Part shown: positions 28,631 to 47,599 of the stretch, piece after piece
Numbering within the stretch: the first letter of the stretch is position 1
Layout: every line of letters starts with the position of its first letter
NCBI GenBank assembly: GCA_030690265.1
Contig: JAUYHA010000049.1
Coordinates: forward strand, 62,001 to 126,000
From: Dehalococcoidales bacterium
GTDB taxonomy: Bacteria; Chloroflexota; Dehalococcoidia; Dehalococcoidales; UBA2162
Reading direction: 5' to 3'
DNA length: 64,000 nucleotides
The notes under the pieces: generated by a model
What the model was told of the DNA's origin: nothing
The model's input: the letters and a program-made list of their open reading frames with translations, nothing else
Database searches by the model: none
Position numbers and translations under genes: made by a program

Positions 28631-28654
28631 AGCTCTTTCTCCTTTCTACAGGTC

Positions 28655-28861
28655 TGTATCAAAAGTGGTTTTTGCCTGTCACCCTGAGCACGTTCACTCC
28701 GTTCACTCTGACGATAACCTGCTCCGAGCTTGTCGAGGCAAGTCGGAACGAGTTCAGTGTAAACTTAGCGAAGGGTCTTGGGGTGGTGCGGATTCACGGA
28801 TTCACCACCGCCCATGCCCGGATTCTTCGTCGCTTGACTCCTCAGAATGACATTTGATACA
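28655..28861. repeat. TIR-bounded interspersed element inside the ccm operon
   Basis: About 207 bp bounded by perfect 9-bp inverted repeats TGTATCAAA (28655-28663) and TTTGATACA (28853-28861). Inside are the ACTCCGTTCACTCTGACGAT, CTCCGAGCTTGTCGAGG and GTCGGAACGAGTTCA modules also seen at 15.3 and 52.3 kb. It separates ccmB from ccmC without breaking either gene. Short ORFs within it are not credible. Confidence 0.65.
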
Positions 28862-28871
28862 AAGCCTCTTT

Positions 28872-31440: not shown

Positions 31441-32047
31441 TTTGTGGCTCCTTTTTCAGGTTTGCCCCGCAATTGGAGCAAAAAAAGTCACTTTCTTCAA
31501 CCCTGCTCCCGCATTGGCTGCAGAAATTTCTCTCTTCCCGGGGCATTTGCTGTACTTCCTTCTCCGCTTTTTGTTTGATGTCTGTTTCCTTTTTTGCTCT
31601 GGCGGCAGTCTGGGGGCGATGAGTACGGCTCCGGCGCAGTGCCAGAACCTGCTTTTCAATTTCATCGCCGGTCTCTCCCCTTTTTGACTTAGTCGAAATC
31701 TGGCGGCGGGGTCGGGCTTTGCCCCGGCGTAGGTTCAGAACCTGCTTTTCTATTTCATCATCCGCTTCAGGACTCTTGTCCAGATTATCAATACCTTTCA
31801 GTATAGATATAGCTTTTTTCTTGTATCTTTCCTCCAGGTCATGGTAGTCCTCCTCGGTCAGGACGCCTGATTGGAAGTCAAATTCCAGCTCCTTGAGCAT
31901 GGAATAGGTGGTATTCCGCCGGGATGATAATTCTCCCAGTTCCTCATCCTCGAATGAACCTGAAAGGGCTGGTTTTCGTTTCAGCAATGGATAGGTCACG
32001 AAGGCAAAAGTCGCTGCTGTCAGCACCAGAGCCACAAAGATAGTCAT
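31433..32047 (-). CDS. CcmI-like membrane protein with C-terminal zinc ribbon
   Basis: 204 residues: one N-terminal membrane helix (MTIFVALVLTAATFAFVTYPLL), a helical segment (NTTYSMLKELEFDFQSGVLTEEDYHDL) like the N-terminus of CcmI-type proteins, a basic linker holding two copies of DEIEKQVLNLRR/DEIEKQVLALRR about 33 residues apart, and a zinc ribbon (CSQCGSRV ... CSNCGANL). CcmI normally chaperones apocytochrome c through TPR repeats, which are missing here. Overlaps ccmH by 4 bp and the next gene by 8 bp. Confidence 0.75.
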   Translation of the reverse strand: MTIFVALVLTAATFAFVTYPLLKRKPALSGSFEDEELGELSSRRNTTYSMLKELEFDFQSGVLTEEDYHDLEERYKKKAISILKGIDNLDKSPEADDEIEKQVLNLRRGKARPRRQISTKSKRGETGDEIEKQVLALRRSRTHRPQTAARAKKETDIKQKAEKEVQQMPREERNFCSQCGSRVEESDFFCSNCGANLKKEPQID

Positions 32048-32550
32048 CTAAAACCCCTCTCCTCAAAAGCTTTCAGTTCCATCTCCAGCCGGTAGCGGTA
32101 TTCCTCTTCCTCCCCCTCTTCAACTTCGGTTGTGATTTTGGCCTGGTCTGCCTGGCCTTGTCCTACCCATTTCCTTATTGCAAAGTAGATTACTCCCCCG
32201 CCAGCCAGTATCGCCGCGAAGGGTAAGAGCCAGGCTACCAGATTAAAGCCTTGCTTGGGGGGGGAAGCCAGCACCTGTTCCCCATACTGGGCGACAAAAA
32301 ACTGGACAATCTGTTCCTTCGATTGCCCATCATCGATTTTTTGCTTGATTACGGTGGTCATCGAGTCCCGCACCATGCATTCGCCATGGGTACAGTTACT
32401 TAAAACTGCTGTGCAGCCGCACTGGCAGATGAGCTCGTTGTCTATGTCACTCACTGTTACCGAGTTTGCCATAACCGGAGAAGCAGAAAGAATCATAAAG
32501 AGCAGAATAGCGCCAGCTAAAATAGCGCCAAAAGTGTTTCCCAGTTTCAT
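32044..32550 (-). CDS. ccmH: Cytochrome c-type biogenesis protein CcmH
   Basis: 168 residues with signal peptide, a CcmH/NrfF helical domain, a membrane helix (LVAWLLPFAAILAGGGVIYFAI) and a charged tail. The usual RCXXCQ redox site is replaced by LICQCGCTAVLSNCTHGEC, a cysteine-rich variant known in some Chloroflexota and other lineages. Reduces apocytochrome thiols and presents them to CcmF. Two bases from ccmF. Confidence 0.88.
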   Translation of the reverse strand: MKLGNTFGAILAGAILLFMILSASPVMANSVTVSDIDNELICQCGCTAVLSNCTHGECMVRDSMTTVIKQKIDDGQSKEQIVQFFVAQYGEQVLASPPKQGFNLVAWLLPFAAILAGGGVIYFAIRKWVGQGQADQAKITTEVEEGEEEEYRYRLEMELKAFEERGFR

Positions 32551-32552
32551 CC

Positions 32553-34529
32553 TTATCCTCCCTCACTGCCGTCCTGTCTCGGAGCCGGCAGTTTCTGGCG
32601 CTCGGGCCAGAAAGCGATTAACCCACCCAGGATGAAGACGCCTCCACCAATCCATATCCAGCTGACTAAAGGATTGATTATGACCTTGAAGGCAGTGGCG
32701 CCGTCCTCTTCCCAGCCAATGAATATAACATACAGGTCTTCAAGGAGAGTAGAGCGGATTGCGACCTCGGTCACTGACTGTTCGTAGCTGCGGTGAAAGT
32801 ATTTTTCTGGTGTTAACCTGCCGAGTAGTTCCCCCCCGTTAGAAACAGAGAGGGTTGTCGTAACCACGCTTTTGCTCTGGGTATCATAAGAGGTTATATT
32901 CTCATAGGTGATGATGTAGTTATTGATAGTCATTGATTCGCCGGGCTTAAGGGTGATCTCCCTTTCAACATTATAGAGCGAGGAACCAACAACCCCGATA
33001 GCGATAAGAATGATACCGATATGAACAATATAGCCACCGTAGCGGGGTCTATTAGCACCAATCAAGCCAAAAAATGCCTTGAGATAGTTATCTCCCCTCA
33101 TCCTGTGGCGGGCTCTGCTGCCCCGGAACCATTCATAAAGTATGGTAGATAGGACAAAACCACAAACCACGAAAGCAATAAGGGCATACCATTGCCTTAT
33201 GCCGAGGACGAAGAGGACTATGCCTAGTATTAGTGCCGCCACCAGCGGGCCGAGGAAATTGCGGACCAGGTTTTTGATTGACGCCCGCCGCCAGCCAATA
33301 AGAGTACAAATCCCGGCAAGCAGAATAATGGCTAAGAAAATGGGCCCGTTCACCTGATTGAAGAAAGGTGGGCCAACACTAATCTTGGTGCCCCGCACTG
33401 CTTCGGATATTACCGGGAAAAATGTTCCCAGGAAGGTAGCAAAGGCAGCCCCCACCAGGAGCAGGTTGTTCAGCAGGAAGGTGCTTTCCCGGGAGACAAG
33501 GGATTCCATCTCCGCCTCACTCTTTAGCTCTTTACTGCGGTGATAGAGTAGACCTAGCGAGCCAAAGAGGGTGATACCAATAAAAGCCAGAAACAGGTTG
33601 CCTAGTACGGGAGACTCGGCAAAGGTGTGCACTGAGGAAAGAACACCGCTCCGCACCAGGAATGTGCCCAGTATTGATAGGGAAAAGGTGATTATTATCA
33701 GCGCCATATTCCAGACCTTGAGCATTCCCCTTCTTCTCTGCATCATAATGGAGTGAAGGAAGGCAGTAGCTGTCAGCCAGGGTATAAAGCTGGCGTTCTC
33801 TACCGGGTCCCATGCCCAGTAGCCTCCCCAGCCAAGCTCAACATATGCCCACCAGCCACCAATAAGATTACCAATTCCAAGGAAGAGCCAGGCAACAAGC
33901 GTCCACCTTCTGATGACTATTAACCACTCATCGCCGAGCCGTCTGGTTAGCAAAGCAGCCATGGCAAAGGCAAAGGGGATGGTGAAGCCAACATAGCCGG
34001 CCAGCAAAGCTGGCGGATGAACTATCATTCCCGGATTCTCAAGCAGGGGGTTAAGTCCCATTCCTTCAGCGGGAACAAACGGTAGCGTGTGGAAGGGATT
34101 TGATACCCAGAGCAGTAAAATAAGGAAGAAGGCCTGGGTGACCATGATGATTGAAGAAGCATAGGGTATTAAATTCTTACCGAGGTCTCGTTTCTGAAGT
34201 AACAGCACAGTGGCAAATATGGAGAGAAGCCATGCCCAGAAGAGTAATGAGCCGGCGTTGCCAGCCCATAAGGCGCTCAGGAGGTAAGCCAGGGACAGGT
34301 CACTGCTGGTATATGAGGCGACATATTCTATCTGGAATTTATGAGTAACCAGGGCATAAAGCAGTATCCCTACCGATATAGAAACCAATCCGCAGGCAGC
34401 CAGAAGACTGTTTTTAGCACTGGCAACCAGACGCGGTTGTTTTCCCCTGGCTCCGAGTGCAAAGGAAACAGCCGAGTAAATTGAGGCTACCAGCGCCAGG
34501 AGTAGAGAGATGTAGCCAATATCCGCCAT
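32553..34529 (-). CDS. ccmF: Heme lyase CcmF/NrfE-type
   Basis: 658 residues, about 15 membrane helices. Ligates heme from CcmE to CXXCH motifs. Tryptophan-rich heme motif GGYWAWDPVENASFIPWL and HPPALLAGYVGFTIPFAF are diagnostic. The C-terminal periplasmic domain with EITLKPGESMTINNYIITY is also typical. Long cytochrome list nearby (39 CXXCH motifs) explains the need for a full lyase. Confidence 0.95.
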   Translation of the reverse strand: MADIGYISLLLALVASIYSAVSFALGARGKQPRLVASAKNSLLAACGLVSISVGILLYALVTHKFQIEYVASYTSSDLSLAYLLSALWAGNAGSLLFWAWLLSIFATVLLLQKRDLGKNLIPYASSIIMVTQAFFLILLLWVSNPFHTLPFVPAEGMGLNPLLENPGMIVHPPALLAGYVGFTIPFAFAMAALLTRRLGDEWLIVIRRWTLVAWLFLGIGNLIGGWWAYVELGWGGYWAWDPVENASFIPWLTATAFLHSIMMQRRRGMLKVWNMALIIITFSLSILGTFLVRSGVLSSVHTFAESPVLGNLFLAFIGITLFGSLGLLYHRSKELKSEAEMESLVSRESTFLLNNLLLVGAAFATFLGTFFPVISEAVRGTKISVGPPFFNQVNGPIFLAIILLAGICTLIGWRRASIKNLVRNFLGPLVAALILGIVLFVLGIRQWYALIAFVVCGFVLSTILYEWFRGSRARHRMRGDNYLKAFFGLIGANRPRYGGYIVHIGIILIAIGVVGSSLYNVEREITLKPGESMTINNYIITYENITSYDTQSKSVVTTTLSVSNGGELLGRLTPEKYFHRSYEQSVTEVAIRSTLLEDLYVIFIGWEEDGATAFKVIINPLVSWIWIGGGVFILGGLIAFWPERQKLPAPRQDGSEGG

Positions 34530-35182: not shown

Positions 35183-35341
35183 TTAAAACGAATCTCCTTC
35201 CTGTTCTGGTTCTAAAACATAGTGGCATGCATCGCAGCTGGCATCAAGTGTCTTGCCCTTTTGCTCACCGGTGGTGGCGACTAGCTTGCCGTGACATCTC
35301 AGACAGCCCGGTGATTTCTGAAATCTCAGCAAATATCTCAT
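35183..35341 (-). CDS. Small diheme-motif protein without signal peptide
   Basis: 52 residues: MRYLLRFQKSPGCLRCHGK ... SCDACHYVLEPEQEGDSF, with two CXXCH motifs (CLRCH, CDACH). ATG overlaps the cytochrome b stop by 4 bp (ATGA), a strong sign of translation. There is no export signal, so heme attachment by the periplasmic Ccm system is puzzling. Either the two motifs bind metal, or the polypeptide is exported with its partner or translated by read-through coupling. Last gene before the ccm promoter. Confidence 0.65.
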   Translation of the reverse strand: MRYLLRFQKSPGCLRCHGKLVATTGEQKGKTLDASCDACHYVLEPEQEGDSF

Positions 35342-36108
35342 TCTTTTGCCTCTCCTTCAACACTCTCTTCAACTGTCTCTCCTTCCTCATCCTCCTCAAC
35401 CATATATAATCTTTCGTATTCCAGAGGGTGGTCCCGACGGTAGCGTTCTCCGGATACTTTACCGGTAAATATGGAACTATTGAAGGGAAAGATGCCCGGG
35501 GTGAAATGGTTGAAAAAGATATGTACCAGGAAAATCCAGGTTAAGGCCAGCAATGCCTCATCGCTATGAGCTACCAGAGCCACAGGAACAACCCAGCCGG
35601 GCAGAAACCTGGTAGCCAGGACAGGATACATCAGAATAAAGCCCGAGCCAGCCATAACAGGTATTCCCCAGAAAATAGCCCAGTAATCAAACTTCTCTTT
35701 CCAGTTGAAGCGGTCATACCTGGGCATTTCTTTTCTCAACCCCAGGAAATAACCCAGCTCCTGAATGAGTTTCACAAAGTCATGAGGGCTGGGAATCATC
35801 TTTATCGGAAAAGGTCTCTTGAGGATAACGATGGTATACCATAGATAGGCCAGGTGATACAGGCAGACGAAAACCATTACCCAGCCCGCCAGATGGTGAA
35901 CGGCGCGGGTGACTTCAATCCCTCCCCACACTCCCACCCACCACTGGCTGATTGCCGATTCGTGATATTTTAGCGGGAAACCGGTAACCACCAGCAGTAT
36001 AAAGCTCACCATCAGTATGGCGTGTTGAATTATTTGGTGGATATCAAAACGGGTAATCTTCTCTTCCAGCCCTTGTTCTAGCGGCATGGCTTCACTTACG
36101 GTCGCCAT
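35338..36108 (-). CDS. Four-helix cytochrome b, formate dehydrogenase-gamma/HyaC-like
   Basis: 256 residues. Membrane helices with heme-ligand histidines: FDIHQIIQHAILMVSFILL, TRAVHHLAGWVMVFVCLYHLAYLWY, and LVAHSDEALLALTWIFLVHIFFNHF. It should carry two b hemes and exchange electrons with menaquinone. ATG 36108 is preferred (GGAGGG 7 nt upstream, overlapping the stop of the preceding gene). C-terminal tail is acidic and cytoplasmic. Paired with the heptaheme cytochrome c upstream as a quinone-cytochrome c module. Confidence 0.88.
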   Translation of the reverse strand: MATVSEAMPLEQGLEEKITRFDIHQIIQHAILMVSFILLVVTGFPLKYHESAISQWWVGVWGGIEVTRAVHHLAGWVMVFVCLYHLAYLWYTIVILKRPFPIKMIPSPHDFVKLIQELGYFLGLRKEMPRYDRFNWKEKFDYWAIFWGIPVMAGSGFILMYPVLATRFLPGWVVPVALVAHSDEALLALTWIFLVHIFFNHFTPGIFPFNSSIFTGKVSGERYRRDHPLEYERLYMVEEDEEGETVEESVEGEAKE

Positions 36109-36110
36109 CT

Positions 36111-37016
36111 TTACTCCCTCCATCTATTGACGGAAAACCTTACGGTGGCGAAAAAGACCACCAGAGCACCAAAGGAAACGACGGATATCAATAGAGTAGT
36201 AAAAATTATTTCCGTGTAATGTGCCGCCGGGATATTCTGCGGTGATGCTTCCTCGTGCCCGAGAAAGCCGCTGGCAAACTCAACCCCGGCACCGGGATGG
36301 CACTGCTCGCAGGTTTTTGCCAGATTTTCCAATCCGGCTACTGGGGAGGTGGGGTCACTCACGCTCTTTATATCGTGGACACCATGACAGTTGGTGCAGG
36401 TCGCTTTATCCAGCTGGCTTATTTCATAGGTGCCCAGTTGCATTGCCTTGCCATGAAAGCTGCGCGTATAGGACTCGTAGACCTTCTCAACAATGGCGTA
36501 GTTTGCCATAAGCTCTTCATTGTTATGGCAATTAGCACAGGTCCGGGCGATATTCTTTTTATAGGTAGGAGCGTCATATTGAAGCACCCGGACGATGCTG
36601 TGCGGATTATAGTCTGGGCTATGGCAATCTACACAGGTAGCCACATCCTGGTTGCCCCTGGCTAGCTGCTGCCCGTGGACGCTTTGAAGGTGTAATTTGT
36701 ATTGATACTGATGGCAGCTGCCGCACTTTTCCGCCAGTGATAATTTGGTTAGTGGGGTGATAACCTCGTGCGGTTCTGATGTATGGCAGGTAGTGCAATC
36801 TATAAAACGGTGAGCTCCGCTATTCACCGCCTCTTCATTGACGTAGAGGGATATTTTAGTACCTTCCCCGTTGGTCTTGGTTAGCCCCGGGTTACCGTGG
36901 CAGGACAGGCAATTGTTCTCATCAAGGCTGTAAACTCTGGTGGAGCCAAATAACAGAATCGGGATAAAGATTGCCAGTATAAGTCCTATAGCTGGGAATA
37001 GAGACACTCTTTTCAT
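36111..37016 (-). CDS. Heptaheme c-type cytochrome, membrane-anchored
   Basis: 301 residues. N-terminal signal/anchor helix, seven CXXCH motifs (CLSCH, CTTCH, CGSCH, CVDCH, CANCH, CTNCH, CEQCH), and a C-terminal membrane helix (IIFTTLLISVVSFGALVVFFATVRF). Intervening His residues (SVHGQQ, SFHGKA, HYTE) are candidate distal ligands. Two bases upstream of the cytochrome b gene, so the pair most likely forms one complex passing electrons from quinol to periplasmic carriers. The 37017-37235 gap upstream holds no gene that I can see. Confidence 0.9.
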   Translation of the reverse strand: MKRVSLFPAIGLILAIFIPILLFGSTRVYSLDENNCLSCHGNPGLTKTNGEGTKISLYVNEEAVNSGAHRFIDCTTCHTSEPHEVITPLTKLSLAEKCGSCHQYQYKLHLQSVHGQQLARGNQDVATCVDCHSPDYNPHSIVRVLQYDAPTYKKNIARTCANCHNNEELMANYAIVEKVYESYTRSFHGKAMQLGTYEISQLDKATCTNCHGVHDIKSVSDPTSPVAGLENLAKTCEQCHPGAGVEFASGFLGHEEASPQNIPAAHYTEIIFTTLLISVVSFGALVVFFATVRFSVNRWRE

Positions 37017-37235: not shown

Positions 37236-37541
37236 TTACCCTGCTGGTTGATGGCACCCGCGGCACATATCATTGGTGCGTCCGGCATGGTTGGCGGGGA
37301 AGGGCTTAATGCCACTTTCACCATGGCATACCAGGCAGTCGTCCCGTCCTTCGAGGGTGTGGGGTATTGCCGGTGGCCCCGCGGTTTCTGTCGGTTCCTC
37401 TGCCGGTGGCGTTTCGTCAGCCGGTGGAGTTGTATCTGGCGTGTTGGGGGTGGTGGTAGTTCCGCCACCACAAGAGATAGCCAGTAGAGTTAACCCTAGT
37501 ATCAGTGCAATCACCAAATACCAGGTTATCTTTCTCTTCAT
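37236..37541 (-). CDS. Diheme c-type lipoprotein
   Basis: 101 residues. Signal peptide with lipobox (LLAISC, Cys 24), a Thr/Pro/Glu spacer, then CLVCH and CRGCH. The core PHTLEGRDDCLVCHG ... IKPFPANHAGRTNDMCRGCH closely matches modules of the octaheme protein at 44710 (PHTLEGRTDCLSCHG; GIKPLPQDHLGRKSTTCLNCH). Probably a surface electron shuttle serving the same pathway. GGAGGTG ribosome site. Its promoter carries the regulator site described at 37616-37694. Confidence 0.9.
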   Translation of the reverse strand: MKRKITWYLVIALILGLTLLAISCGGGTTTTPNTPDTTPPADETPPAEEPTETAGPPAIPHTLEGRDDCLVCHGESGIKPFPANHAGRTNDMCRGCHQPAG

Positions 37542-37694: not shown

Positions 37695-37810
37695 ACGGCA
37701 GGTCATCAAAATAGAGTGGAAACAAGGCTAGAAGGACTTGACTGGGGATTTCAGTAAAATTGAAAATAAGGGGAACCAGTGGCTATAATCAAAGTGAGCG
37801 GGGTATCAGG

Positions 37811-39304
37811 GTGTTTAAGAACAGGCTTCAATATAGAATAATCCTGTTAGTTTCTGGCATCTTACTGGTTATTGGTATCTTTGGCGGCGCAGTTATGCTC
37901 TATTTACAGCGGCAAACTACCGTGGCTCACTTTACCGAGTCAACAGTTGCCTTAGCTGCAATGCTTCGTGACTCTTTGGAACGTGATATGCTTCTGGCGA
38001 ACCGTGAGCACGTGCAAGATTCTGTTACCCTGATGGCTTTAAGGAAGCCCGTAAATGATGTGACTATTCTTTCTAACCAGCGGAAGGTCTATGCTTCCAG
38101 TGAGACCTCTGTTATTGGTGAGATAAGGGATGACGAAAGCATTAGCCAGGTCTTTACCTCCGGGAAAACGGTCACAGGAGTGGAGAACCGCTACGGAAAT
38201 AAGAGCCTGTATGTTATCTTTCCGGTATGGAACAAGCCTGATTGCTACAGCTGTCACGGTTCGGCATCAGAGATTCTGGGGGCAATTGAGATTGGTGTGG
38301 ACAGCCATATGCTGGATAGGCAGATTCAAGAACAAACGCTGACCATGGCGGTGATAGCCGGGGTTACCTTTGTCATCGTGGGGGGAGTACTGACCTATGT
38401 CTTGCGCTCAGCAGTGGCTAATCCCATGTCAAAGCTGGCAGCCTCAGCTCGGCGAATCGCCGGAGGTGACCTTAGCGCTAGGGTGGAGATTGAGAGGGAC
38501 GATGAGGTTGGCATGGTGGGGCGCAGCTTTAATGAAATGGCGGAGCAAGTTGAGCAGCACGCTCAAGCTCTTGAAGTTTCTAAAAAAGAGCTGGAAGAGA
38601 CGGTTCAGGAGAGAACCCGGCAGCTGCAAGAAACGGTAGGGATTCGCGGGCAATTGCTGGAGAGTCTTATTTCGGCGCAGGAGGAAGAGCGCCACAGAGT
38701 AGCCCGGGAGCTTCATGACGAAGTCGGGCAAGCTCTTTCTGCCATTATGATGGATTTAGCCAGGGCGATTGACGGCTTACCGGATGAGGCAGCCGAAGCC
38801 AAGCAGAAGCTAACGCAGTCGCGTGCCCTCGCCGCTCAGACTCTGGCAGAACTGCGCAAGCTGATTTATGACCTCCGTCCTGAAGTGCTTGACCAGCTCG
38901 GTCTGGCTCCAGCCCTGCGCTCCTATGTCAAAAGTCGCCTGGAGGCTCAAGATATCAAAGCGCGCCTCAGCTTCTCCGGGCTGGAAAACAGGCTCCCTTC
39001 CCGGATGGAGATTACCCTATTCCGGATTATTCAGGAGGCGACTACCAATGTAGTCCGCCACTCCGGGGCATCTATGGTCAGTATCAAAGTGTCAGCAACA
39101 GACTCGCGAGTAGAGGCTGTCATTCAAGACAATGGCCAGGGTTTCGATGTTGCAGCGGCTCTTCAAGCCTCAGAGTCCTGGGGGTTACGCGGTATTCGCG
39201 AAAGGGTCAACGTTGTCGGGGGACAGCTGAGTATAGAATCAACACCTGGGAAAGGCACTCGGATACGCTTCCAGGTTCCTCTGGAGGGTAACTATTATGA
39301 GTAA
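37811..39304 (+). CDS. Sensor histidine kinase with heme c-type motif in its sensor domain (NarX/HisKA_3 family)
   Basis: About 497 residues. TM1 (IILLVSGILLVIGIFGGAVML), an extracytoplasmic domain of ~150 residues containing CYSCHG just before TM2, TM2 (LTMAVIAGVTFVIVGGVLTYVL), HAMP, coiled coil, HisKA_3 with phospho-acceptor in RHRVARELHDEVGQ, and an HATPase (NVVRHSGAS, DNGQGFD, WGLRGIRERV). The CXXCH in the sensor predicts a covalently bound heme, hence sensing of redox state or a heme ligand. GTG 37811 is chosen since it gives MFKNRLQYRIILL; a TTG at 37760 is an alternative. Overlaps the regulator gene by 8 bp. Confidence 0.9.
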   Translation: MFKNRLQYRIILLVSGILLVIGIFGGAVMLYLQRQTTVAHFTESTVALAAMLRDSLERDMLLANREHVQDSVTLMALRKPVNDVTILSNQRKVYASSETSVIGEIRDDESISQVFTSGKTVTGVENRYGNKSLYVIFPVWNKPDCYSCHGSASEILGAIEIGVDSHMLDRQIQEQTLTMAVIAGVTFVIVGGVLTYVLRSAVANPMSKLAASARRIAGGDLSARVEIERDDEVGMVGRSFNEMAEQVEQHAQALEVSKKELEETVQERTRQLQETVGIRGQLLESLISAQEEERHRVARELHDEVGQALSAIMMDLARAIDGLPDEAAEAKQKLTQSRALAAQTLAELRKLIYDLRPEVLDQLGLAPALRSYVKSRLEAQDIKARLSFSGLENRLPSRMEITLFRIIQEATTNVVRHSGASMVSIKVSATDSRVEAVIQDNGQGFDVAAALQASESWGLRGIRERVNVVGGQLSIESTPGKGTRIRFQVPLEGNYYE

Positions 39305-39950
39305 GCTGCACATTTTGATTGTGGACGATCACGGGATTGTTCGAGCCGGCATACGCTCCTTGCTGGAGGGTCAGCCTGATATTGAGGTAGTGGGAGAGGC
39401 GGCAGGAGGGGAAGAGGCTATCGAGAAAGCGGTGCAATTTCAGCCGGACCTGGTGCTTATGGACATCGCTATGCCGGGGATGAATGGTATTGAAGCTACC
39501 TATCGTATAAAGAAGGAACTCCCTCACACCCGTGTCCTTGTCCTCAGTATGCATGATGACGAGGAGTTTTTCTTCCCTGTGCTCAGGGCGGGAGCCTCGG
39601 GTTATATCCTGAAGGAAGCTGAACCGCAGGAACTGCTCTACGCTATCCACACGGTTCACCAGGGCAATGTTTTCCTTTCACCAGCCGTCGCCAGTACTTT
39701 GCTGGAAGGCTTCATTACGGCGACCCCCGAGACGGCTGGCGAGACTTATGGTGCCCTGACCCGCCGTGAAAAAGAGGTGCTCCGGTTAGCCGCTTCCGGT
39801 CAGACCAACCGCGAGATGGCGGAGGCACTTTTCCTGAGTATCAGGACGGTGGAGAAATACCGCCAGGCGGTAATGCACAAGCTCGGCCTGGCCAGGCGGG
39901 AGGACCTGACCAAGTATGCCATTCGTAGAGGACTTATTGACTTCGAGTGA
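39297..39950 (+). CDS. Response regulator, NarL/FixJ (LuxR-type) family
   Basis: 217 residues. Receiver domain with acidic pocket VDDH, phospho-acceptor in LVLMDIAMPGMNG, Thr/Ser in LVLSMHDD and Lys in YILKEA; C-terminal LuxR helix-turn-helix LTRREKEVLRLAASGQTNREMAEALFLSIRTVEKYRQ. Cognate partner of the upstream kinase by overlap. It lies between two copies of a CTACCC-based site, which are its most plausible targets. Confidence 0.95.
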   Translation: MSKLHILIVDDHGIVRAGIRSLLEGQPDIEVVGEAAGGEEAIEKAVQFQPDLVLMDIAMPGMNGIEATYRIKKELPHTRVLVLSMHDDEEFFFPVLRAGASGYILKEAEPQELLYAIHTVHQGNVFLSPAVASTLLEGFITATPETAGETYGALTRREKEVLRLAASGQTNREMAEALFLSIRTVEKYRQAVMHKLGLARREDLTKYAIRRGLIDFE

Positions 39951-40197: not shown

Positions 40198-40953
40198 ATG
40201 GAGACCTGGCTTATCGTTCTAATTGCGGTGGTAGTATTGGTGCTATTGCCTCTTGCCGTCAAGATTGTGAAGCAGTACGAGCGGGGGGTGATGCTTCGTT
40301 TCGGGCGCCTGGTTGGGGTAAGAAACCCCGGTTTTAATTTGATTATTCCCTTTGTTGACCGAATGACCAAGGTTAGCCTTCGTATCGTGACCACGGTGTT
40401 AGAGCCACAGGAGGTGATAACCAGGGATAACGTCACCGTCAGGGTGGATGCGGTAGTCTACTTCAAGGTGATTGAGCCGGCAAAGGCAATAATTAATGTT
40501 GAAAACTACCGTGATGCAATCATTCAGCTGGCTCTGACTACCCTTCGAAGTGTTCTCGGGCAGTCAGACCTGGACGAGTTGCTGGCCCATCGTGACGAGA
40601 TTAACCTGAGACTTCAGCAGATTATTGACAAAGAAAGTGAAGAACCGTGGGGGGTCACTGCTACGCTGGTCGAGGTTAAAGATGTTCTTCTCCCCGAAGG
40701 AATGCAGCGGGCTATGGCTCGTCAGGCTGAGTCAGAACGAGAAAAGCGAGCCAAGATTATCCATGCCGAAGGTGAACAGGCGGCGGCGTCAACTCTGGCG
40801 GAAGCGGCCAGGATTATTAACGCTCAGCCCGCGGCCCTGCAGCTGCGCTACCTGCAAACCCTGGTTGAGATGTCCGGCGAGAGGAACAGCACCATCATAC
40901 CGTTACCGGTAGACATCCTTAATATCCTGTCCAATGTATCTAAAGGTGGGTAG
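40198..40953 (+). CDS. SPFH/band 7 protein (slipin/stomatin-like)
   Basis: 251 residues. N-terminal membrane helix (LIVLIAVVVLVLLPLAVKI), then the PHB domain (VKQYERGVMLRFGRLVGVRNPGFNLIIPFVDRM; VITRDNVTVRVDAVVYFKV) and a helical tail AMARQAESEREKRAKIIHAEGEQAAA. Typical short bacterial slipin; oligomeric membrane scaffold. AAGGAGG ribosome site. No NfeD partner gene is adjacent. Leading the cytochrome/NrfD cluster, it may organise or protect those membrane complexes (inference). Confidence 0.93.
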   Translation: METWLIVLIAVVVLVLLPLAVKIVKQYERGVMLRFGRLVGVRNPGFNLIIPFVDRMTKVSLRIVTTVLEPQEVITRDNVTVRVDAVVYFKVIEPAKAIINVENYRDAIIQLALTTLRSVLGQSDLDELLAHRDEINLRLQQIIDKESEEPWGVTATLVEVKDVLLPEGMQRAMARQAESEREKRAKIIHAEGEQAAASTLAEAARIINAQPAALQLRYLQTLVEMSGERNSTIIPLPVDILNILSNVSKGG

Positions 40954-41032
40954 CATTAGTAGCGGAAAGAACTGAAGCGTTGGACAGGCCCGTTTGAAAG
41001 AGTCTTCATCTCATGGCGGAAAGGGTATCTTT

Positions 41033-42283
41033 GTGAAATTTAAGTTGCTTCTATTTGTTGCCTTCGCAGTCTCGGTCTTATGGATTTTGACTACTGCTGT
41101 CCTCGCCCAAGAAGAGTTGCCCCCAAGCTATGCCGGATTGAAGAACCCTTTCCCCTGGACTGATGGTACTGCTCAGGAAGCAGGCAAGGAGTTATATCAG
41201 GTTACCTGTCTTCCCTGTCACGGAGCCAGCGGGGGTAATATAGCCGGGGCTAACTTTGCCAGTGCGAATTACACGGGTCGTCTCGAGGAAAGCCCTGACC
41301 GTTCTTTCTGGCTCTTGAGCGAGGGTAGTCAGGATAAAGGTATGCCCGCTTACAAGTTTTCCCTTTCCGAAGAGCAGCGGTGGCAGGTGCTGACTTACCT
41401 CTGGTCTTTAAGCAAAGAAGGAGCTTCTACCGAGATAGCTGGTCCGATTGTGATTAACCCGGTAAGTGAAGAAGGCGTCTTGCCAGACTGTTTTCGATGT
41501 CACACGAGGGTGCTGAAGGGCCATGATAAACTCGGTGAAGGAAGCGGTGCCTGTCTCATCTGCCATAGCGGCACCCACATGGGAATGCTGCGTCTTTTTG
41601 ATGGCACCGAGCTCTCTCCGGAGGATTCCCCCAAGCTCTGCGGGCAGTGTCATTCGGCGCATTATGCTGCCTGGCAGGAAGGGACTCACGGCATCGTTGC
41701 TGGAAGGGAAGAAAGGACCGGGTTGCCCATTGTGGTGAAGCCAAAGTGTGCTGATTGTCATGAGCCGCACCAGCCCCAGATGTCTCTTGCCATAGGTAAG
41801 ACCTATCCGCCTCTATCCGCTGAAGGGGGTCAGCTGGACTGCTTGAGTTGTCATGTGAGAGTGCTGAAGGGTCATGATAAACTCGGTGAAGGAAGCGAAG
41901 CTTGCTGGGCCTGCCATGTCAGTACCCAGATGAAAACACTACATCTGGCTGGTGGAGAAACCCGGTTGCCCTTGTCAGATTCTCCCAAACTTTGTGCCCA
42001 GTGTCATCAGGCGCGTTATGAAGCCTGGGAAAGAGGAACACACGGAGTTCCTGCCTGGAAGGAAGGAGAACCAGCAATTGTTGGTGCTGATAAAGTTAAG
42101 TGTATTAACTGTCACGAACCGCACCAGCCTCAGATACCTCTTCTGAATATAACCAAACCTCATCCACCGGCTCAGCCTCCGCCGGCTAAACCATCGGCTC
42201 TCTTGTTAGCCCTGCTTGGCATCTCCGGAGTACTTGTAGTAGCGGTTGGCCTGGCAGTGGTGAGAAGAGGAGAATTGCCATGA
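41033..42283 (+). CDS. Nonaheme c-type cytochrome with class I domain and two tetraheme modules
   Basis: About 416 residues from GTG 41033 (AAAGGG upstream; the alternative TTG 40994 would add residues before a clean signal peptide). Signal peptide, then a class I cytochrome c domain (CLPCHG, with DKGMPAYKF as the likely Met ligand), then two tandem modules each with four CXXCH (CFRCH-CLICH-CGQCH-CADCH and CLSCH-CWACH-CAQCH-CINCH), a Pro-rich linker and a C-terminal membrane helix (LLLALLGISGVLVVAVGLAVV). The ATGA overlap with the Fe-S subunit gene shows they form one complex. Confidence 0.92.
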   Translation: MKFKLLLFVAFAVSVLWILTTAVLAQEELPPSYAGLKNPFPWTDGTAQEAGKELYQVTCLPCHGASGGNIAGANFASANYTGRLEESPDRSFWLLSEGSQDKGMPAYKFSLSEEQRWQVLTYLWSLSKEGASTEIAGPIVINPVSEEGVLPDCFRCHTRVLKGHDKLGEGSGACLICHSGTHMGMLRLFDGTELSPEDSPKLCGQCHSAHYAAWQEGTHGIVAGREERTGLPIVVKPKCADCHEPHQPQMSLAIGKTYPPLSAEGGQLDCLSCHVRVLKGHDKLGEGSEACWACHVSTQMKTLHLAGGETRLPLSDSPKLCAQCHQARYEAWERGTHGVPAWKEGEPAIVGADKVKCINCHEPHQPQIPLLNITKPHPPAQPPPAKPSALLLALLGISGVLVVAVGLAVVRRGELP

Positions 42284-43134
42284 AGCAAATGGGGCGCAGA
42301 GAGTTCATCAAATATTCGGGCGGGCTGATAGGGTTTGTGCTCCTGGGTAAATACATCAGGTTCCCTTTTTCCTCCCGGGCTTCTGGGCAAGCTTCCGGAC
42401 AGGAGTCAGTTTTGAAGCGAGCGGCTGACGGGCTGGGCACGGTAGCTGACCCGGCTAACAGATTTGCCATGGTAATAGATGTCGGGGCATGTATCGGCTG
42501 TAGGAGATGCCAGTGGGGGTGTAAAGAAGAGAATAATATCCCGGACACCATCTCTCCGCCCTGGATAGAGGTATTTGAGGTGAAATCCGATGTAAGCGTC
42601 GGCGGTCACCCATCACTGCAAGACCTCAAGGAAGGAGTCACTACATCCTATACGGAATCTCCTCGAGAGGGAAGGTGGTATTTACCCGCCCAGTGTAATC
42701 ACTGTGACAATCCGCCGTGTGTCAAAGTCTGTCCCGTGGGAGCAACCTATAAGGATAAAGATGGGCTTGTTTTGATGAATTACGATAGGTGTATCGGTTG
42801 CCGAATTTGTGTGGTAGCCTGTCCCTACAGCGCCCGTCGCTTTAACTGGTTGGAACCAGAAATTCCTGCTGACGAGACGAACCCGCTGGTGCCGGTCCGT
42901 CCCCTGAGCGTTGTTGAGAAGTGCACTTTCTGCGTACACCGAACCCGGCAAGGAAAGTTACCCCGCTGCGTTGAGGTATGCCCGGTGCGAGCCCGGCACT
43001 TCGGCAACATTAACGACCCGGAAAGCGAAGTTGCCAAAATATTAGAGACAAACCTGAGCTTCCGTCTTTTGGAGGAAGCTAATACTCATCCTCACATATG
43101 GTACATTACACGGGGTAAAAAATGGCTGCAATGA
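42280..43134 (+). CDS. Four-cluster iron-sulfur subunit (PsrB/NrfC/HmcB-type), module 1
   Basis: 284 residues. N-terminal MGRREFIKYSGG is twin-arginine-like. Cysteine motifs CIGCRRCQWGCKEEN, CNHCDNPPCVKVCPVGA, CIGCRICVVACPYSA and CTFCVHR...CVEVCPVRA coordinate four [4Fe-4S] clusters. Family members wire an NrfD membrane quinone site to a partner on the outer face. Overlaps nrfD by 13 bp. No molybdopterin catalytic subunit is present in this cluster. Confidence 0.92.
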   Translation: MKQMGRREFIKYSGGLIGFVLLGKYIRFPFSSRASGQASGQESVLKRAADGLGTVADPANRFAMVIDVGACIGCRRCQWGCKEENNIPDTISPPWIEVFEVKSDVSVGGHPSLQDLKEGVTTSYTESPREGRWYLPAQCNHCDNPPCVKVCPVGATYKDKDGLVLMNYDRCIGCRICVVACPYSARRFNWLEPEIPADETNPLVPVRPLSVVEKCTFCVHRTRQGKLPRCVEVCPVRARHFGNINDPESEVAKILETNLSFRLLEEANTHPHIWYITRGKKWLQ

Positions 43135-44444
43135 TGAGAAGAAGAACAGATAGACCAGATAGAGTTACCCTGGATTTGATGCGGCCGGTACTATTTACAG
43201 GCAGAGCCTTTTTCCCGTTAGCTGCTCTGGTGGTAGTTGTCTTTGGCTTGTATGTTTATACCTTCTACATTCAAGTTACCCAGGGTCATGGAGCTGCTAC
43301 CGGTCAATCCACCCCGGTGGGAGCGGTATGGGGCCTGTATGTTGCCAGTATTGTCTTTTTCATAGGTATCAGTCATGTCGGCATCGGCGTTTCTGCTGCC
43401 ACTCGCCTCCTCAACCTGCACTATTTAAGACCTTATGCCAGGGTAGCTGAGCTACTTACCCTGTTCTGTTTACCGGCGGCTGTTCTCATTATCACCCTGG
43501 ATATTGGCAGACCAGAAAGGTTTCTCATAAATGTTATGATATACGGGCGCATTCAGGCACCCTTTGTCTGGTCAGCCACCGTTATCTCGGTCTATCTTTT
43601 TGCCAGTCTCGTCTATCTCTACTTATCAATGCGCCGGGATTTAGCACTGAGTGCCAGGTATGTGCCAAGGTGGGGGTGGTTATACAGGCTATTAGCCCTG
43701 GGCTATGAGGATACCGAGGAAGCAAGAGAATTGCATGAAAAAGTCCTGTGGTGGATGGCTCTGGTCCTTATCCCCATTATGGTTTCAGTGCACTCCGTTT
43801 ACGGTTTTGTCTTCGGTCTTCATGGTGGCAGGCCGGGGTGGTTTAACCCTTTTATGGCTCCGTACTTCGTCCTCGGAGCTCTGATTAATGGCTTTGCCAC
43901 CCTCGTTGCTGTGGTGGCTATCATCCGCAAGCTCTATCATTGGGAAGAGTATCTACCCGTTGAAGCAATAAGGAACCTCGCCCGGTTCCTTTGCTGGATG
44001 ACGGCCATATATATCTATTTCATGGGGGCTGAATACCTTACCTATATTTACAGTCCGCCGGCTGGTGAGGTCAGTGTGGCTCGGTCCGTATTGAAAGGTG
44101 AGTTTAGCCTGATTTTCTGGCCGGCAATGGGCACACTTGTTCTCGGCTGGCTTTTGCTCTTTCTTAATCAAACCATATTCAACCGCCAGTTTACTCTCTG
44201 GGTCACTGTCGTTGGAGCCTGCTTGATAAACATTGTCTTGTTTGCTACGCGGTACCTGATTGTGGTACCTTCCCTGCTGCGCCCTCTTCTTCCTTTTCCG
44301 ACCGGCACCTACACGCCAACTTTGTACGAGTGGGGAGCATTTCTCGGAGTGGCTGCCTTTGTGGTTGGCGCCTATACGCTATTTCTGAAGGTCTTTCCGA
44401 TTATAGAGCTTCCCCATTCCAGTGAGCTGGAGGAGCGGCGGTGA
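43122..44444 (+). CDS. NrfD/PsrC-family membrane subunit, module 1
   Basis: 440 residues, about ten membrane helices. VGIGVSAATRLLNLHYLRP, TLDIGRPERFLINVMIYGR and WWMALVLIPIMVSVHSVYGFVFGLHGGRPGWFNPFMAPYFVLGALINGFA are landmark segments of the long NrfD type (as in ActC/HmcC). Contains the putative quinone site but no heme-binding His pattern. Acts with the preceding Fe-S and nonaheme subunits. Confidence 0.93.
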   Translation: MAAMMRRRTDRPDRVTLDLMRPVLFTGRAFFPLAALVVVVFGLYVYTFYIQVTQGHGAATGQSTPVGAVWGLYVASIVFFIGISHVGIGVSAATRLLNLHYLRPYARVAELLTLFCLPAAVLIITLDIGRPERFLINVMIYGRIQAPFVWSATVISVYLFASLVYLYLSMRRDLALSARYVPRWGWLYRLLALGYEDTEEARELHEKVLWWMALVLIPIMVSVHSVYGFVFGLHGGRPGWFNPFMAPYFVLGALINGFATLVAVVAIIRKLYHWEEYLPVEAIRNLARFLCWMTAIYIYFMGAEYLTYIYSPPAGEVSVARSVLKGEFSLIFWPAMGTLVLGWLLLFLNQTIFNRQFTLWVTVVGACLINIVLFATRYLIVVPSLLRPLLPFPTGTYTPTLYEWGAFLGVAAFVVGAYTLFLKVFPIIELPHSSELEERR

Positions 44445-44644
44445 CGAAAAAGTTGCTCATTATTTCAGCCAATGCGGTGGTGAGCCTGACAATGGCAGCT
44501 ACCGGCTTGACCCGAATGATTCTGAGAGACCCCCTCCTGGGGGGTGGTTACGAGTTCTCTACTCTGCTGTGGATTACCGGCCTGATAACCCTTTTCTTGA
44601 TACCGCTGGAAATATGCATAATAAAGCCGTTTAAAAGAAGTTAA
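44441..44644 (+). CDS. Small two-helix membrane protein of module 1
   Basis: 67 residues; GTG overlaps the nrfD stop by 4 bp (GTGA). Two predicted helices (LLIISANAVVSLTMAATGL and FSTLLWITGLITLFLIPLEICII) joined by a short loop, basic C-terminus. Not recognised by name. The coupling and place in the cluster suggest an accessory membrane subunit, as small extra subunits occur in ActF/HmcD-like complexes. Confidence 0.75.
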   Translation: MTKKLLIISANAVVSLTMAATGLTRMILRDPLLGGGYEFSTLLWITGLITLFLIPLEICIIKPFKRS

Positions 44645-44709
44645 CCAGAATATAGCCAGGGTAAAGTTTACGGCAAAGAATACTTGTCACCAGGGTAAGG
44701 TAGCTAAAA

Positions 44710-45459
44710 ATGAAACATTTAGCTAGGGCCGGGGTGTTATTATCAGCGGTACTCCTATTCGTTTTTGTTGGCCTCAGAGTAATGCCTATCCCGCCCTTTC
44801 TGACCGGTTTTGGCTTTCACCAGAAGAATGTGGAGGAAAATGAGGCGCTGTGGGCGAGCCTGCCGTTTCAGTATGTTAGTTCTTCTATCTGCAGTGATTG
44901 TCACCAAAATGAGTACAGCTTGCGGGAGAAGGCGAAGCACCGGTCAGTTAGCTGTGAGACCTGTCACGGCCCAGCCAGGGAACATCTGGCAACTGGAGCA
45001 GCCGAGACTCTGGATACCTCAAGAGAACTTTGCGGATTGTGCCATGCTCGGCTTATCTCTCGGCCCAGCGGCTTTCCCCAGGTAGATATGGGAAAGATGG
45101 GCGGGGATGCGGAGTGCATAACCTGCCATGACCCCCATGAGCCTCGGGTAGGGATGCCTCCCGAGGTTCCCCATCACCTGGAGGAACGCAGCGACTGCCA
45201 GACATGCCATAGTCCGAGTGAGCCTCTGGAAATACCACCACCTCAGACTCCCCATACTCTGGAGGGACGGACTGATTGCCTGTCGTGCCACGGTCCATCC
45301 GAAATCAGAGGAGCTACATTACCCCATATCCCCAGCAGTGTAGCTGGAATAACTGATTGCCTGGCGTGTCATAGTGTCGGCGGGGGAATCAAACCTTTAC
45401 CCCAGGACCACCTCGGGCGCAAAAGCACCACCTGTTTGAACTGTCATCGGAGTGAGTGA
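44710..45459 (+). CDS. Octaheme c-type cytochrome, membrane-anchored
   Basis: 249 residues. N-terminal helix (GVLLSAVLLFVFVGLRVM) as signal anchor, then eight CXXCH motifs: CSDCH, CETCH, CGLCH, CITCH, CQTCH, CLSCH, CLACH, CLNCH. The second half is built of repeats of the form PHxLExRxDCxxCHxPSE. Its last part resembles the diheme lipoprotein at 37236. Overlaps the following Fe-S gene by 4 bp; first gene of module 2. Confidence 0.9.
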   Translation: MKHLARAGVLLSAVLLFVFVGLRVMPIPPFLTGFGFHQKNVEENEALWASLPFQYVSSSICSDCHQNEYSLREKAKHRSVSCETCHGPAREHLATGAAETLDTSRELCGLCHARLISRPSGFPQVDMGKMGGDAECITCHDPHEPRVGMPPEVPHHLEERSDCQTCHSPSEPLEIPPPQTPHTLEGRTDCLSCHGPSEIRGATLPHIPSSVAGITDCLACHSVGGGIKPLPQDHLGRKSTTCLNCHRSE

Positions 45460-46268
45460 AGAAAATGAAAATTTCACGGCGGGATTTTGTAAAAATAGGG
45501 GCTAAGGGATTGCTGGGGGGAATTATCGCTTATAGTATTCCTTCCCTGTTACGAAATTTTGCGCCGGTGGGCGGTGTTAGCCGGTCTCTGGCGGCAGCTT
45601 ACCCTGCTGAACTTGAGTGGGAAAAACGCTACTGGGGATTTATCGTAGATAATGAAAAGTGTATTGGCTGCGGCAGATGTGTCCGGGCTTGCAAGCTGGA
45701 AAACAAGGTACCCTGGGAAGCTGAATATAACCGAACCTGGGTTGAGAGATATGTTATTGCTGAGGACGGAGAGGTTTTTGTTGACTCCCCGGAGGCGGGC
45801 AGGGATGGCTTTATCGCTGAACCCGTAAATAAGAAATACCTGGGTCTGGATGTCAGGAAAAGCTTTTTTGTGCCCAAACTTTGTAACCAGTGTGATAACC
45901 CGCCCTGCGTAACCGTTTGTCCGGTTGGGGCTACCTATATGACCAAGGATGGGGTTATCCTGATTGACCAGGAACACTGTATTGGCTGCGGCTATTGTAT
46001 CCAGGCATGCCCCTACGGGGCAAGATTTTTCCTCCCCGAGGAAAGGGTGGTAGATAAATGCACCTGGTGTTACCACCGCATCCAGAAGGGGCTTGCTCCG
46101 GCCTGTGTCGAGGTATGTCCGGTGGGAGCCAGGATTTTTGGTGACCTGCGGGACCCGAATAGCCAGGTAAGGAAAATACTTGCTGAGCAGCGTGTCTATG
46201 TTTTAAAACCGGATTTGGGTACCGAACCAAAGGTCTATTACATTGGATTTGAGAAGGGGGTACATTAA
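45456..46268 (+). CDS. Four-cluster iron-sulfur subunit, module 2 (Tat substrate)
   Basis: 270 residues from GTG 45456 (ATG 45465 also possible). Clear Tat signal SRRDFVKIGAKGLLGG. Four cluster motifs: CIGCGRCVRACKLEN, CNQCDNPPCVTVCPVGA, CIGCGYCIQACPYGA, CTWCYHR...CVEVCPVGA. Paralogue of the module 1 subunit, with which it shares the same order, so the two modules probably arose by duplication. Export by Tat places it on the outer face with the cytochromes. Confidence 0.93.
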   Translation: MKKMKISRRDFVKIGAKGLLGGIIAYSIPSLLRNFAPVGGVSRSLAAAYPAELEWEKRYWGFIVDNEKCIGCGRCVRACKLENKVPWEAEYNRTWVERYVIAEDGEVFVDSPEAGRDGFIAEPVNKKYLGLDVRKSFFVPKLCNQCDNPPCVTVCPVGATYMTKDGVILIDQEHCIGCGYCIQACPYGARFFLPEERVVDKCTWCYHRIQKGLAPACVEVCPVGARIFGDLRDPNSQVRKILAEQRVYVLKPDLGTEPKVYYIGFEKGVH

Positions 46269-46271
46269 GCT

Positions 46272-47450
46272 GTGGTCGGCTTCGTATTTCCTAACGAAGG
46301 TATGATAGAGTGGGATTTACTCATCGTTATTTATCCCTACATTACCGGCCTGGTGGCCGGTGCCTTCATCGTGTCATCCCTCTATCATGTCTTCGGTCTG
46401 ACCAAGCTCAAGCCCGTGGCTCGTTTCTCTCTGGTTGCCGCCCTCGCTTTTCTTATAGTTACTCCTCTGCCTCTGCTCATTCACCTGGGGCGACCGGAAA
46501 GAGGGCTGGAGATGTTTCTAACTCCGAACCTTAACTCGGCTATGTCTGCCTTCGGTTACATATGGTTTTTCTATCTCCTGCTGGTGCTTCTGGAAATCTG
46601 GCTCGTTTTCAGACAGGATATCGTGAACTACGCCATGACAACCGAGGGTACGAAGAAAACCATCTATTCTGCCTTAGCCTTAGGGGTCTATGACATATCA
46701 GAAGAATCCCTGGCTATTGACAAGAAGCTCATCAAGGTGTTTTCCTTCATTGGAATCCCCACCGCCGTTCTCCTGCATGGCTATGTTGGCTTCATCTTCG
46801 GGGCGGTTAAAGCCAACCCCTGGTGGTCTACCCCATTAATGCCTATCATCTTTCTGATGTCAGCTACAGTCTCCGGCATAGCCCTGCTGATTGTATTATA
46901 TGTCATCGTAAGCAAGCTCAGGAAAGTGCCCCTGGATTCTGCTTGCCTGCGAACCCTGGCTCTCTGGCTAGCCGGCTTTCTGGCTATAAATGTAGTCTTG
47001 GAAGGCCTGGAAGTCTTCTCCATGCTCTACGAGTCCGAGGAGAGCTGGGGTATCATCTCCCAGTTGATAACTCAGAAAATAGGCATCAGCTACTTCGGTA
47101 TCCAGTTTATCATGGGTGCCGTGGTGCCACTGCTTACCCTGGCATTTGTGGAGTTAGGTGTGGTGGGCGAAGATACCAGGACCTCTCTAAGATTTCTGGC
47201 TGCCAGCCTGGTGTTAATCGGTGTCTTTGCCATGCGCTGGAATGTGGTGATAGGGGGCCAATTGATGTCCAAGAGCCTGAGGGGTTTCTCAAGCTACACT
47301 CCGCCCCTTCTCGGCTTAAACGGGTTAATTATGGCGGCGCTGCTCATGGGACTGCCCTTTATCATATTAGCCGCAATTATTTATCTCATCCCTCCCTGGC
47401 AGGAAGAGCCTCAGAGGGAGACCGGGCTCAGGAGAAGGCGCTTACGATAG
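46272..47450 (+). CDS. NrfD-family membrane subunit, module 2
   Basis: 392 residues, nine or ten membrane helices. Start EWDLLIVIYPYITGLVAGAFIVSSLYHVFG, then LLIHLGRPERGLEMFLTPN and AVLLHGYVGFIFGAVKANPWWSTPLMPIIFLMSATVSGIALL. It is a different NrfD subtype from module 1 (shorter, TtrC/PsrC-like features) but keeps the GRPER loop. It starts 3 nt after the Fe-S gene. Ends the electron-transfer cluster; no terminator is obvious before the tRNA. Confidence 0.92.
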   Translation: MVGFVFPNEGMIEWDLLIVIYPYITGLVAGAFIVSSLYHVFGLTKLKPVARFSLVAALAFLIVTPLPLLIHLGRPERGLEMFLTPNLNSAMSAFGYIWFFYLLLVLLEIWLVFRQDIVNYAMTTEGTKKTIYSALALGVYDISEESLAIDKKLIKVFSFIGIPTAVLLHGYVGFIFGAVKANPWWSTPLMPIIFLMSATVSGIALLIVLYVIVSKLRKVPLDSACLRTLALWLAGFLAINVVLEGLEVFSMLYESEESWGIISQLITQKIGISYFGIQFIMGAVVPLLTLAFVELGVVGEDTRTSLRFLAASLVLIGVFAMRWNVVIGGQLMSKSLRGFSSYTPPLLGLNGLIMAALLMGLPFIILAAIIYLIPPWQEEPQRETGLRRRRLR

Positions 47451-47523: not shown

Positions 47524-47599
47524 TGGTAGGCCGTACAGGTCTCGAACCTGTGACACCCTGATTAAAAGTCAGGTGCTCTACCAACTGAGCTAACGGCCC
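47524..47599 (-). tRNA. tRNA-Lys (anticodon TTT)
   Basis: Reads GGGCCGTTAGCTCAGTTGG from 47599. D arm GCTC-AGTTGGTA-GAGC, anticodon arm CCTGA-CTTTTAA-TCAGG with TTT, T arm with GGTTCGAGACC, and acceptor GGGCCGT pairing with ACGGCCT, then A and an encoded CCA. All four stems close; 76 nt. Confidence 0.97.

Follow-up and report, generated by a model that had tools for sequence, protein, structure and literature searches.

Organization of the cluster

The window analyzed here is a 64,000-nucleotide stretch of a Dehalococcoidales genome (Chloroflexota; GenBank assembly GCA_030690265.1, contig JAUYHA010000049.1, positions 62,001–126,000). The genome is a metagenome-assembled genome (MAG) of 2.44 Mb, 91.7% complete with 7.3% contamination, of which ~8% may be missing. 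Seven open reading frames (ORFs) on the plus strand, at 41033–47450, encode two modules, each with a c-type cytochrome, an iron–sulfur (Fe–S) protein and an NrfD-type membrane protein (Table 1). Module 1 comprises a cytochrome, FeS1, NrfD_L and a 67-residue membrane protein, and module 2 comprises an octaheme cytochrome, FeS2 and NrfD_S.

An earlier note on this DNA, made from the letters alone, had listed seven genes in this order and strand, with nine and eight hemes in the two cytochromes. All of the ORFs were present, with 9 and 8 CxxCH motifs, respectively, and when the first cytochrome was shuffled, 0 of 20,000 sequences reached even 4 heme motifs. The note started the first gene at TTG 40994; that ORF is real, but GTG 41033 is the likelier start, giving a protein with a signal peptide (MKFKLLLF...VLA/QE). 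The tight joints of 1–13 bp that it described were seen at four junctions, with overlaps of 4, 13, 4 and 4 bp, but the other two are gaps of 3 and 65 bp. The larger gap separates module 1 from module 2, and the modules may therefore be two transcription units; a scan for promoters and terminators gave nothing above chance.

FeS1 and FeS2 both have 16 Cys residues in four-cluster spacing. The note had pointed to export by the twin-arginine translocation (Tat) pathway for the Fe–S protein of module 2, where a motif is indeed present, but FeS1 has one too (GRREFIK and SRRDFVK, one per protein). Both membrane proteins passed the Pfam NrfD model, with 106 and 145 bits against a cut-off of 25.8. The seven-gene cluster contains no molybdopterin gene, in agreement with the note's claim that a catalytic molybdoenzyme is lacking.

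Table 1. Genes of the two-module cluster and associated genes in the window.
Feature	Position	Strand	Description
Module 1 cytochrome	41033..42283	+	Sec signal peptide, monoheme c head, octaheme body and C-terminal transmembrane segment; two ancestral genes fused
FeS1	42280..43134	+	Four-cluster Fe–S protein, 16 Cys, Tat motif; DsrO/NrfC/PsrB kind; ortholog of L034/L035 FeS1
NrfD_L	43122..44444	+	440 residues, predicted ActC-type fold with 10 transmembrane segments; native start and molybdoenzyme-anchor-type body
67-residue membrane protein	44441..44644	+	Homolog behind the NrfD gene of the L161 molybdoenzyme operon
Module 2 octaheme cytochrome	44710..45459	+	249 residues, N-terminal hydrophobic segment; 69% identity to L034/L035
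FeS2	45456..46268	+	Four-cluster Fe–S protein, Tat motif; Tyr at the QrcC Y113 position (CIGCGYC)
NrfD_S	46272..47450	+	392 residues, NrfD subtype with H71 and S89; 80% identity to L034/L035
SPFH/stomatin-like protein	40198..40953	+	Probable associated gene
Sensor histidine kinase with CxxCH	37760..39304	+	Like kinases upstream of related modules; probable regulator
NarL-type response regulator	39297..39950	+	Partner of the CxxCH histidine kinase

A three-module cluster in relatives

Two relatives of the same family (loci L034 and L035) carry an intact cluster of ten genes in three modules, in the order SPFH–(octaheme, FeS1, NrfD)–sm93–(FeS_M, NrfD_M, monoheme c)–(octaheme, FeS2, NrfD_S). The sm93 protein has 93 residues and two transmembrane segments, and the monoheme c protein of the middle module, module M, has three. 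Neither cluster includes a molybdenum (Mo) subunit. Directly downstream of both lie genes for multiheme lipoproteins with the Pfam MtrC/MtrF domain, the one in L034 being cut by the contig end.

The modules also occur singly: tetraheme cytochrome with FeS1 and NrfD (L037, L038, L254, L255), FeS_M with NrfD_M and monoheme c (L039, L041, L256, L265, L266, L270) and cytochrome with FeS2 and NrfD_S (L257–L262, L053), the last accompanied in L260 by 15-heme and MtrC-domain cytochromes. Relatives of NrfD_S at E ≤ 1e-40 were found in 13 of 393 genomes of the class, in two of which the sole match was 36% identical. An NrfD_M-type gene was found neither in the window cluster nor in the rest of this incomplete assembly; the only other NrfD gene, on contig C127, belongs to a different type and is accompanied by Fe–S and cytochrome genes of its own. 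Judged by this comparison, the window copy derives from the three-module cluster by reduction and recombination and has apparently lost the middle module. The rearranged copy is known from this one MAG, and no second genome had the same arrangement. The earlier note had suggested a Mo-free, two-part conduit between quinone and multiheme cytochromes; such a conduit, with two modules and two NrfD subtypes, is supported, but the basic system is not the one with seven genes.

The first cytochrome as a gene fusion

The first cytochrome aligns over residues ~1–138 with module M's monoheme c protein and over residues ~141–412 with the octaheme protein. Its octaheme body arose in turn by duplication of a tetraheme unit. 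From these alignments, the nonaheme protein is a monoheme cytochrome c-type domain fused in frame to an octaheme protein. Among 156 genomes of the order, head and body were joined solely in the window genome; all other matches were to the head or the body alone, including a longer head match in genome G076, to a diheme c protein. That the two became fused suggests that the octaheme protein and the monoheme domain were once on one electron path.

NrfD_L and its small partner

The body of NrfD_L was 60% identical to the NrfD protein of L161, a Psr/Phs/Arr-like molybdoenzyme operon in another genome of the class Dehalococcoidia, but only 41–43% identical to the NrfD proteins in the native position. 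When 138 NrfD proteins were placed in a tree, NrfD_L paired with the L161 protein with a support of 1.00, within a clade of 12 members (support 0.98) in which a Mo subunit adjoins all 11 others. The N-terminus gave the opposite result: the first 31 residues scored 80 (L035) and 79 against the native proteins and 41 against L161, and the first ~27 codons are native. The DNA over the FeS1 stop and the NrfD_L start is nearly identical to that of L035, and the 13-bp overlap is common to both. NrfD_L is, by these matches, a hybrid with a native N-terminal start and a body from a molybdoenzyme anchor subunit. Its interpretation as an ortholog of the NrfD protein in the same position in L034 and L035 is ruled out by the identity values, the tree and the small partner.

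That partner, the 67-residue protein, had one homolog among all loci fetched, directly behind the L161 NrfD gene (E 1e-13). The native module 1 loci carry the unrelated sm93 in its place. Because both the NrfD body and the 67-residue protein match the L161 operon, they were, most simply, captured together from such a Mo operon.

Quinone-site residues and predicted folds

A Ser in the quinone site has been reported for all NrfD-like proteins except ActF, corresponding to Ser164 in ActC (PMC8076601). In our alignment of ~140 NrfD proteins and two ActC sequences, this Ser was kept in every NrfD except NrfD_L, which has Ala146. The ActC residues H139, D169 and D253 correspond to D127, S151 and V230 in NrfD_L. 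An Asp occupies the QrcD D120 position in this protein, and H85, Y158, H224, E304 and R377 were kept among the residues tested. In NrfD_S, the residues are H71 and S89, a pair that matches H74 and S92 of E. coli NrfD in identity and spacing. The quinone site of module 2 is thus canonical and that of module 1 atypical. Module 2 is probably the main quinone-reactive part. In QrcD, the S138A substitution abolishes electron transfer and activity, whereas a change at the equivalent site of HybB had little effect (PMC13059093).

At the position of QrcC Y113, assigned from the description in the paper plus the Ala of PsrB, FeS2 has Tyr and FeS1 has Ile. The FeS_M proteins encoded beside oxidases mostly have Phe or Met here, which makes this Tyr weak as a test of activity.

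AlphaFold models of NrfD_L and NrfD_S had predicted local distance difference test (pLDDT) values of 81 and 72, respectively. The NrfD_L model gave template modeling scores (TM-scores) of 0.85–0.86 to ActC and 0.54–0.62 to ActF, and a phmmer search with NrfD_L matched 8k9e_C with an E-value of 3.5e-27. For NrfD_S, the TM-scores were 0.70–0.74 to ActC and 0.48–0.59 to ActF. The structural comparison with ActC and ActF that the earlier note had suggested therefore places both proteins closer to ActC; of HmcC and QrcD, which it had also named, no structure from either complex was among the PDB hits. Its claim of two NrfD subtypes in one cluster was borne out, NrfD_L having the ActC fold and NrfD_S belonging to a different subtype.

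Proposed function and alternatives

We propose, with a probability of about 0.62, that the locus encodes a two-module, Mo-free, NrfD-type quinol:multiheme-cytochrome oxidoreductase whose module 1 has been rebuilt and from which electrons leave toward surface cytochromes. On the model of the homologous Nrf, Psr, Act and Qrc systems, menaquinol would be oxidized at the outer face of NrfD. The Tat-exported four-cluster Fe–S protein, sitting outside the membrane on NrfD, would receive the electrons and hand them to the membrane-anchored multiheme cytochrome, and from there they would pass to further multiheme cytochromes at the surface or in the periplasm, to judge from the gene neighborhoods most likely the OmcA/MtrC-like lipoproteins of this lineage. 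In the rebuilding of module 1, the monoheme c exit domain of the lost middle module would have joined the octaheme cytochrome, and the NrfD body and small subunit would have given way to their counterparts from a molybdoenzyme operon, with an atypical quinone site as the outcome.

The gene content, the fusion, the hybrid NrfD, the residue changes, the predicted fold and the relatives were established here; quinol oxidation, the direction of flow, proton coupling, the acceptor and the association of the two modules in one complex are inferred. Module M relatives in Bacteroidales adjoin terminal oxidases of the aa3 (TIGR02891, 677 bits) or cbb3 (NF011053, 1133 bits) type, which argues for electron export from quinol; likewise, MtrC-domain multiheme cytochromes adjoin the L034, L035 and L260 clusters, which points to export rather than uptake.

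The genome carries a bc complex, an aa3-type oxidase, NarGHJI and two OmcA/MtrC-like genes. The bc complex rules out that the cluster is the cell's sole quinol:cytochrome c oxidoreductase. One of the OmcA/MtrC-like multiheme lipoproteins is encoded in the window at 1979–4288 (135 bits, under the cut-off of 209) and the other on contig C102 (450 bits, passing it). The window protein has no significant similarity to the lipoprotein beside the L035 cluster and was rejected as its ortholog.

Several points weigh against the proposed oxidoreductase. All function is assigned by homology. The nearest OmcA/MtrC-like gene in the window is 37 kb away on the opposite strand, and the bc complex, NarGHJI and aa3 oxidase leave other acceptors possible. 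As NrfD_L lacks the Ser whose loss kills QrcD activity, module 1 may function poorly or not react with quinone at all. Finally, the 7.3% contamination of the MAG has to be kept in mind.

One doubtful alternative is that electrons flow in reverse, from outside or periplasmic donors through the multiheme cytochromes and the Fe–S and NrfD proteins to menaquinone, as in QrcABCD. It would account for the Asp of NrfD_L at the QrcD D120 position; moreover, the donor of Qrc is cytochrome c3 (PMC13059093), and the oxidase and nitrate reductase of this genome could use the quinol. However, the oxidases beside the module M relatives argue for the opposite direction, as does the origin of the fused head, a cytochrome c-type domain of module M, and neither a hydrogenase nor a formate dehydrogenase was seen adjoining the cluster. 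The two modules might also form one complex that reached an ActC/ActF-like division of labor independently and without a Mo-like domain, in which NrfD_S binds quinol, NrfD_L is only proton-conducting or structural and the fused head replaces the lost exit of the third module. We hold this to be improbable as well. As to an ActF-type partner without quinone-site residues, H71 and S89 are present in NrfD_S, and in NrfD_L the Ser is gone but D127 is retained.

Still less convincing is the idea that the cluster anchors to the membrane a periplasmic reductase whose genes lie elsewhere, either a molybdoenzyme or a multiheme reductase, as NrfBCD does for NrfA. The derivation of NrfD_L and its small partner from a molybdoenzyme operon and the NrfD-like character of the module 2 membrane protein would fit such an anchor, and a truncated PhsA-like Mo gene does lie at the end of the 4.8-kb contig C128, beside transposase-like genes. 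NrfA itself is ruled out as a partner, since PF02335 had no match in the genome (an E. coli control was positive). Of the other Mo proteins in the genome, NarG comes with NarHJI of its own, one is NuoG/Fdh-like, and one is Fdh-like and has no visible export signal; the L034 and L035 clusters do without a Mo subunit. An obligatory molybdopterin partner elsewhere, which the earlier note had named as grounds for giving up its proposal, was thus not found in fitting form, the one truncated Mo gene excepted.

That module 1 has been decaying since the loss of the middle module, leaving only module 2 at work, would explain the unique Ser-to-Ala change and the absence of the Tyr from FeS1. We rate it as very improbable: the reading frames of module 1 are all intact with tight overlaps, NrfD_L keeps H85, Y158, H224, E304 and R377, and the FeS_M proteins on the oxidase side usually lack the Tyr too. 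Lastly, an assembly chimera as the source of the fused cytochrome and the hybrid NrfD is unlikely, and the weakest of these explanations, in spite of the contamination and of the arrangement being seen in no second genome, as neither join breaks the reading frame, the two parts of the cytochrome have no homology to each other where they meet, the cluster is interior to a 163-kb contig and the 67-residue protein matching the foreign NrfD follows NrfD_L with a 4-bp overlap.

If the proposed oxidoreductase is correct, the locus would represent a respiratory complex caught in the middle of being rebuilt, by fusion of subunits, loss of a module and a swap of a membrane subunit, with the three-module relatives as the prior state. 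It would show that Mo and Mo-free complexes can exchange NrfD subunits and would offer a concrete route from quinone to multiheme cytochromes for this group of Chloroflexota. NrfD_L would also allow a natural test of the need for the quinone-site Ser, which is supposed to be universal.

Neighboring genes and related units

Most such modules in the relatives have an SPFH/stomatin-like gene directly in front of them. On the minus strand, 35338–37016 encodes a cytochrome b561-like protein (PF01292) and a seven-heme membrane cytochrome, a pair that also lies beside the L034, L035 and L260 clusters. A small diheme lipoprotein-like gene at 37236–37541 (minus strand) is likewise found next to the L035 cluster (E 1e-27). 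Ccm-type cytochrome c maturation genes, needed for the many multiheme proteins here, occupy 27950–34529 on the minus strand, and a tRNA-Lys gene (ttt; 47524–47599, minus strand) lies just behind the cluster. In L258 (1–5400), genes for Rieske-like, cytochrome b and triheme proteins continue directly into the cytochrome–FeS2–NrfD_S module, so that an NrfD module and a bc-type complex follow each other without a break. In loci L100–L160, mostly from Bacteroidales, Fe–S, NrfD and monoheme c genes lie beside aa3 or cbb3 genes in about half of 80 loci, and no ActB-type gene was seen in between. These Bacteroidales units are possibly minimal quinol:cytochrome c reductases resembling alternative complex III.

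Comparison with known systems

The cluster has the Mo-free NrfCD-type layout of a four-cluster Fe–S protein, an NrfD-type protein and a c-type cytochrome with no catalytic subunit. It does not have the complex iron–sulfur molybdoenzyme (CISM) layout, as no catalytic Mo subunit was found in the cluster and the Mo proteins of the genome do not fit, apart from the one truncated gene. The L161 Mo operon shares the NrfD_L body (60%) and the 67-residue protein, but the window cluster lacks its TorD-type chaperone and its catalytic Mo subunit.

Among the curated models of related complexes, FeS1 reached 202 bits with DsrO (cut-off 200), but the DsrP model failed with 66 and 52 bits (cut-off 350). An identification as DsrMKJOP was rejected on these grounds; DsrM, DsrK and DsrJ were absent from the cluster, for which no genome-wide search was made. 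The Hmc models failed, with 23 of 400 bits for HmcA, 113 of 420 for HmcB and 18 of 550 for HmcC, and the NCBIfam results included no model of Nhc or Tmc subunits. Module 2 resembles NrfBCD in its order of cytochrome, Fe–S and NrfD genes and in the His/Ser pair of the quinone site; unlike in NrfABCD, NrfA is absent, and the Nrf cut-offs were not reached (NrfD, 59 of 348 bits; NrfC, 177 of 378 bits). QrcABCD likewise combines a four-cluster Fe–S protein, an NrfD with 10 transmembrane segments and a multiheme cytochrome, and the D120 position is an Asp in NrfD_L as well; however, Qrc includes the Mo-like QrcB, and S138, kept in QrcD, is Ala in NrfD_L. With the Qrc models, FeS1 scored 159 of 400 bits for QrcC, neither NrfD matched QrcD and no QrcB was found in the cluster.

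Alternative complex III (ActABCDEF) shares the ActC-type fold of NrfD_L, a four-cluster Fe–S part, multiheme and monoheme c cytochromes, two NrfD proteins and the lack of a Mo cofactor. It differs in that the Fe–S protein of the window is separate and lacks the Mo-like domain of ActB (FeS1, with 284 residues, aligned only to the C-terminal Fe–S part of ActB), that NrfD_S fits ActC better than ActF and that H139, D169 and D253 of ActC are not kept in NrfD_L. The window cytochromes had no match in the PDB to ActA or ActE.

Compared by description, the TMH1–DsrOhPh–tetrahaem locus of cable bacteria, with a proposed role in passing electrons from quinone to the periplasm and an NrfD near DsrP in a tree (PMC13047784), has a DsrO-like Fe–S protein, a DsrP-like NrfD, a multiheme cytochrome and a small transmembrane protein without a catalytic subunit. 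It is, however, a single module, for which no fusion or second NrfD subtype is described. SirCD (Fe–S and NrfD-type) of Shewanella and CbcSTU (Fe–S, membrane and c-type cytochrome) of Geobacter are quinol dehydrogenases for extracellular or periplasmic respiration, and SirCD can replace CymA, including with ferric citrate (PMC11434368). These two, also likened by description, are single modules with other cytochromes. In the open-licence literature, we found no account of this order with two or three modules, of the fused cytochrome or of a molybdoenzyme-derived NrfD swap, in keeping with the earlier note's view of the gene order as undescribed. Single Mo-free units of Fe–S, NrfD and cytochrome are already known or proposed, and SirCD, CbcSTU, DsrOhPh–tetrahaem and alternative complex III are the nearest to the cluster described here.

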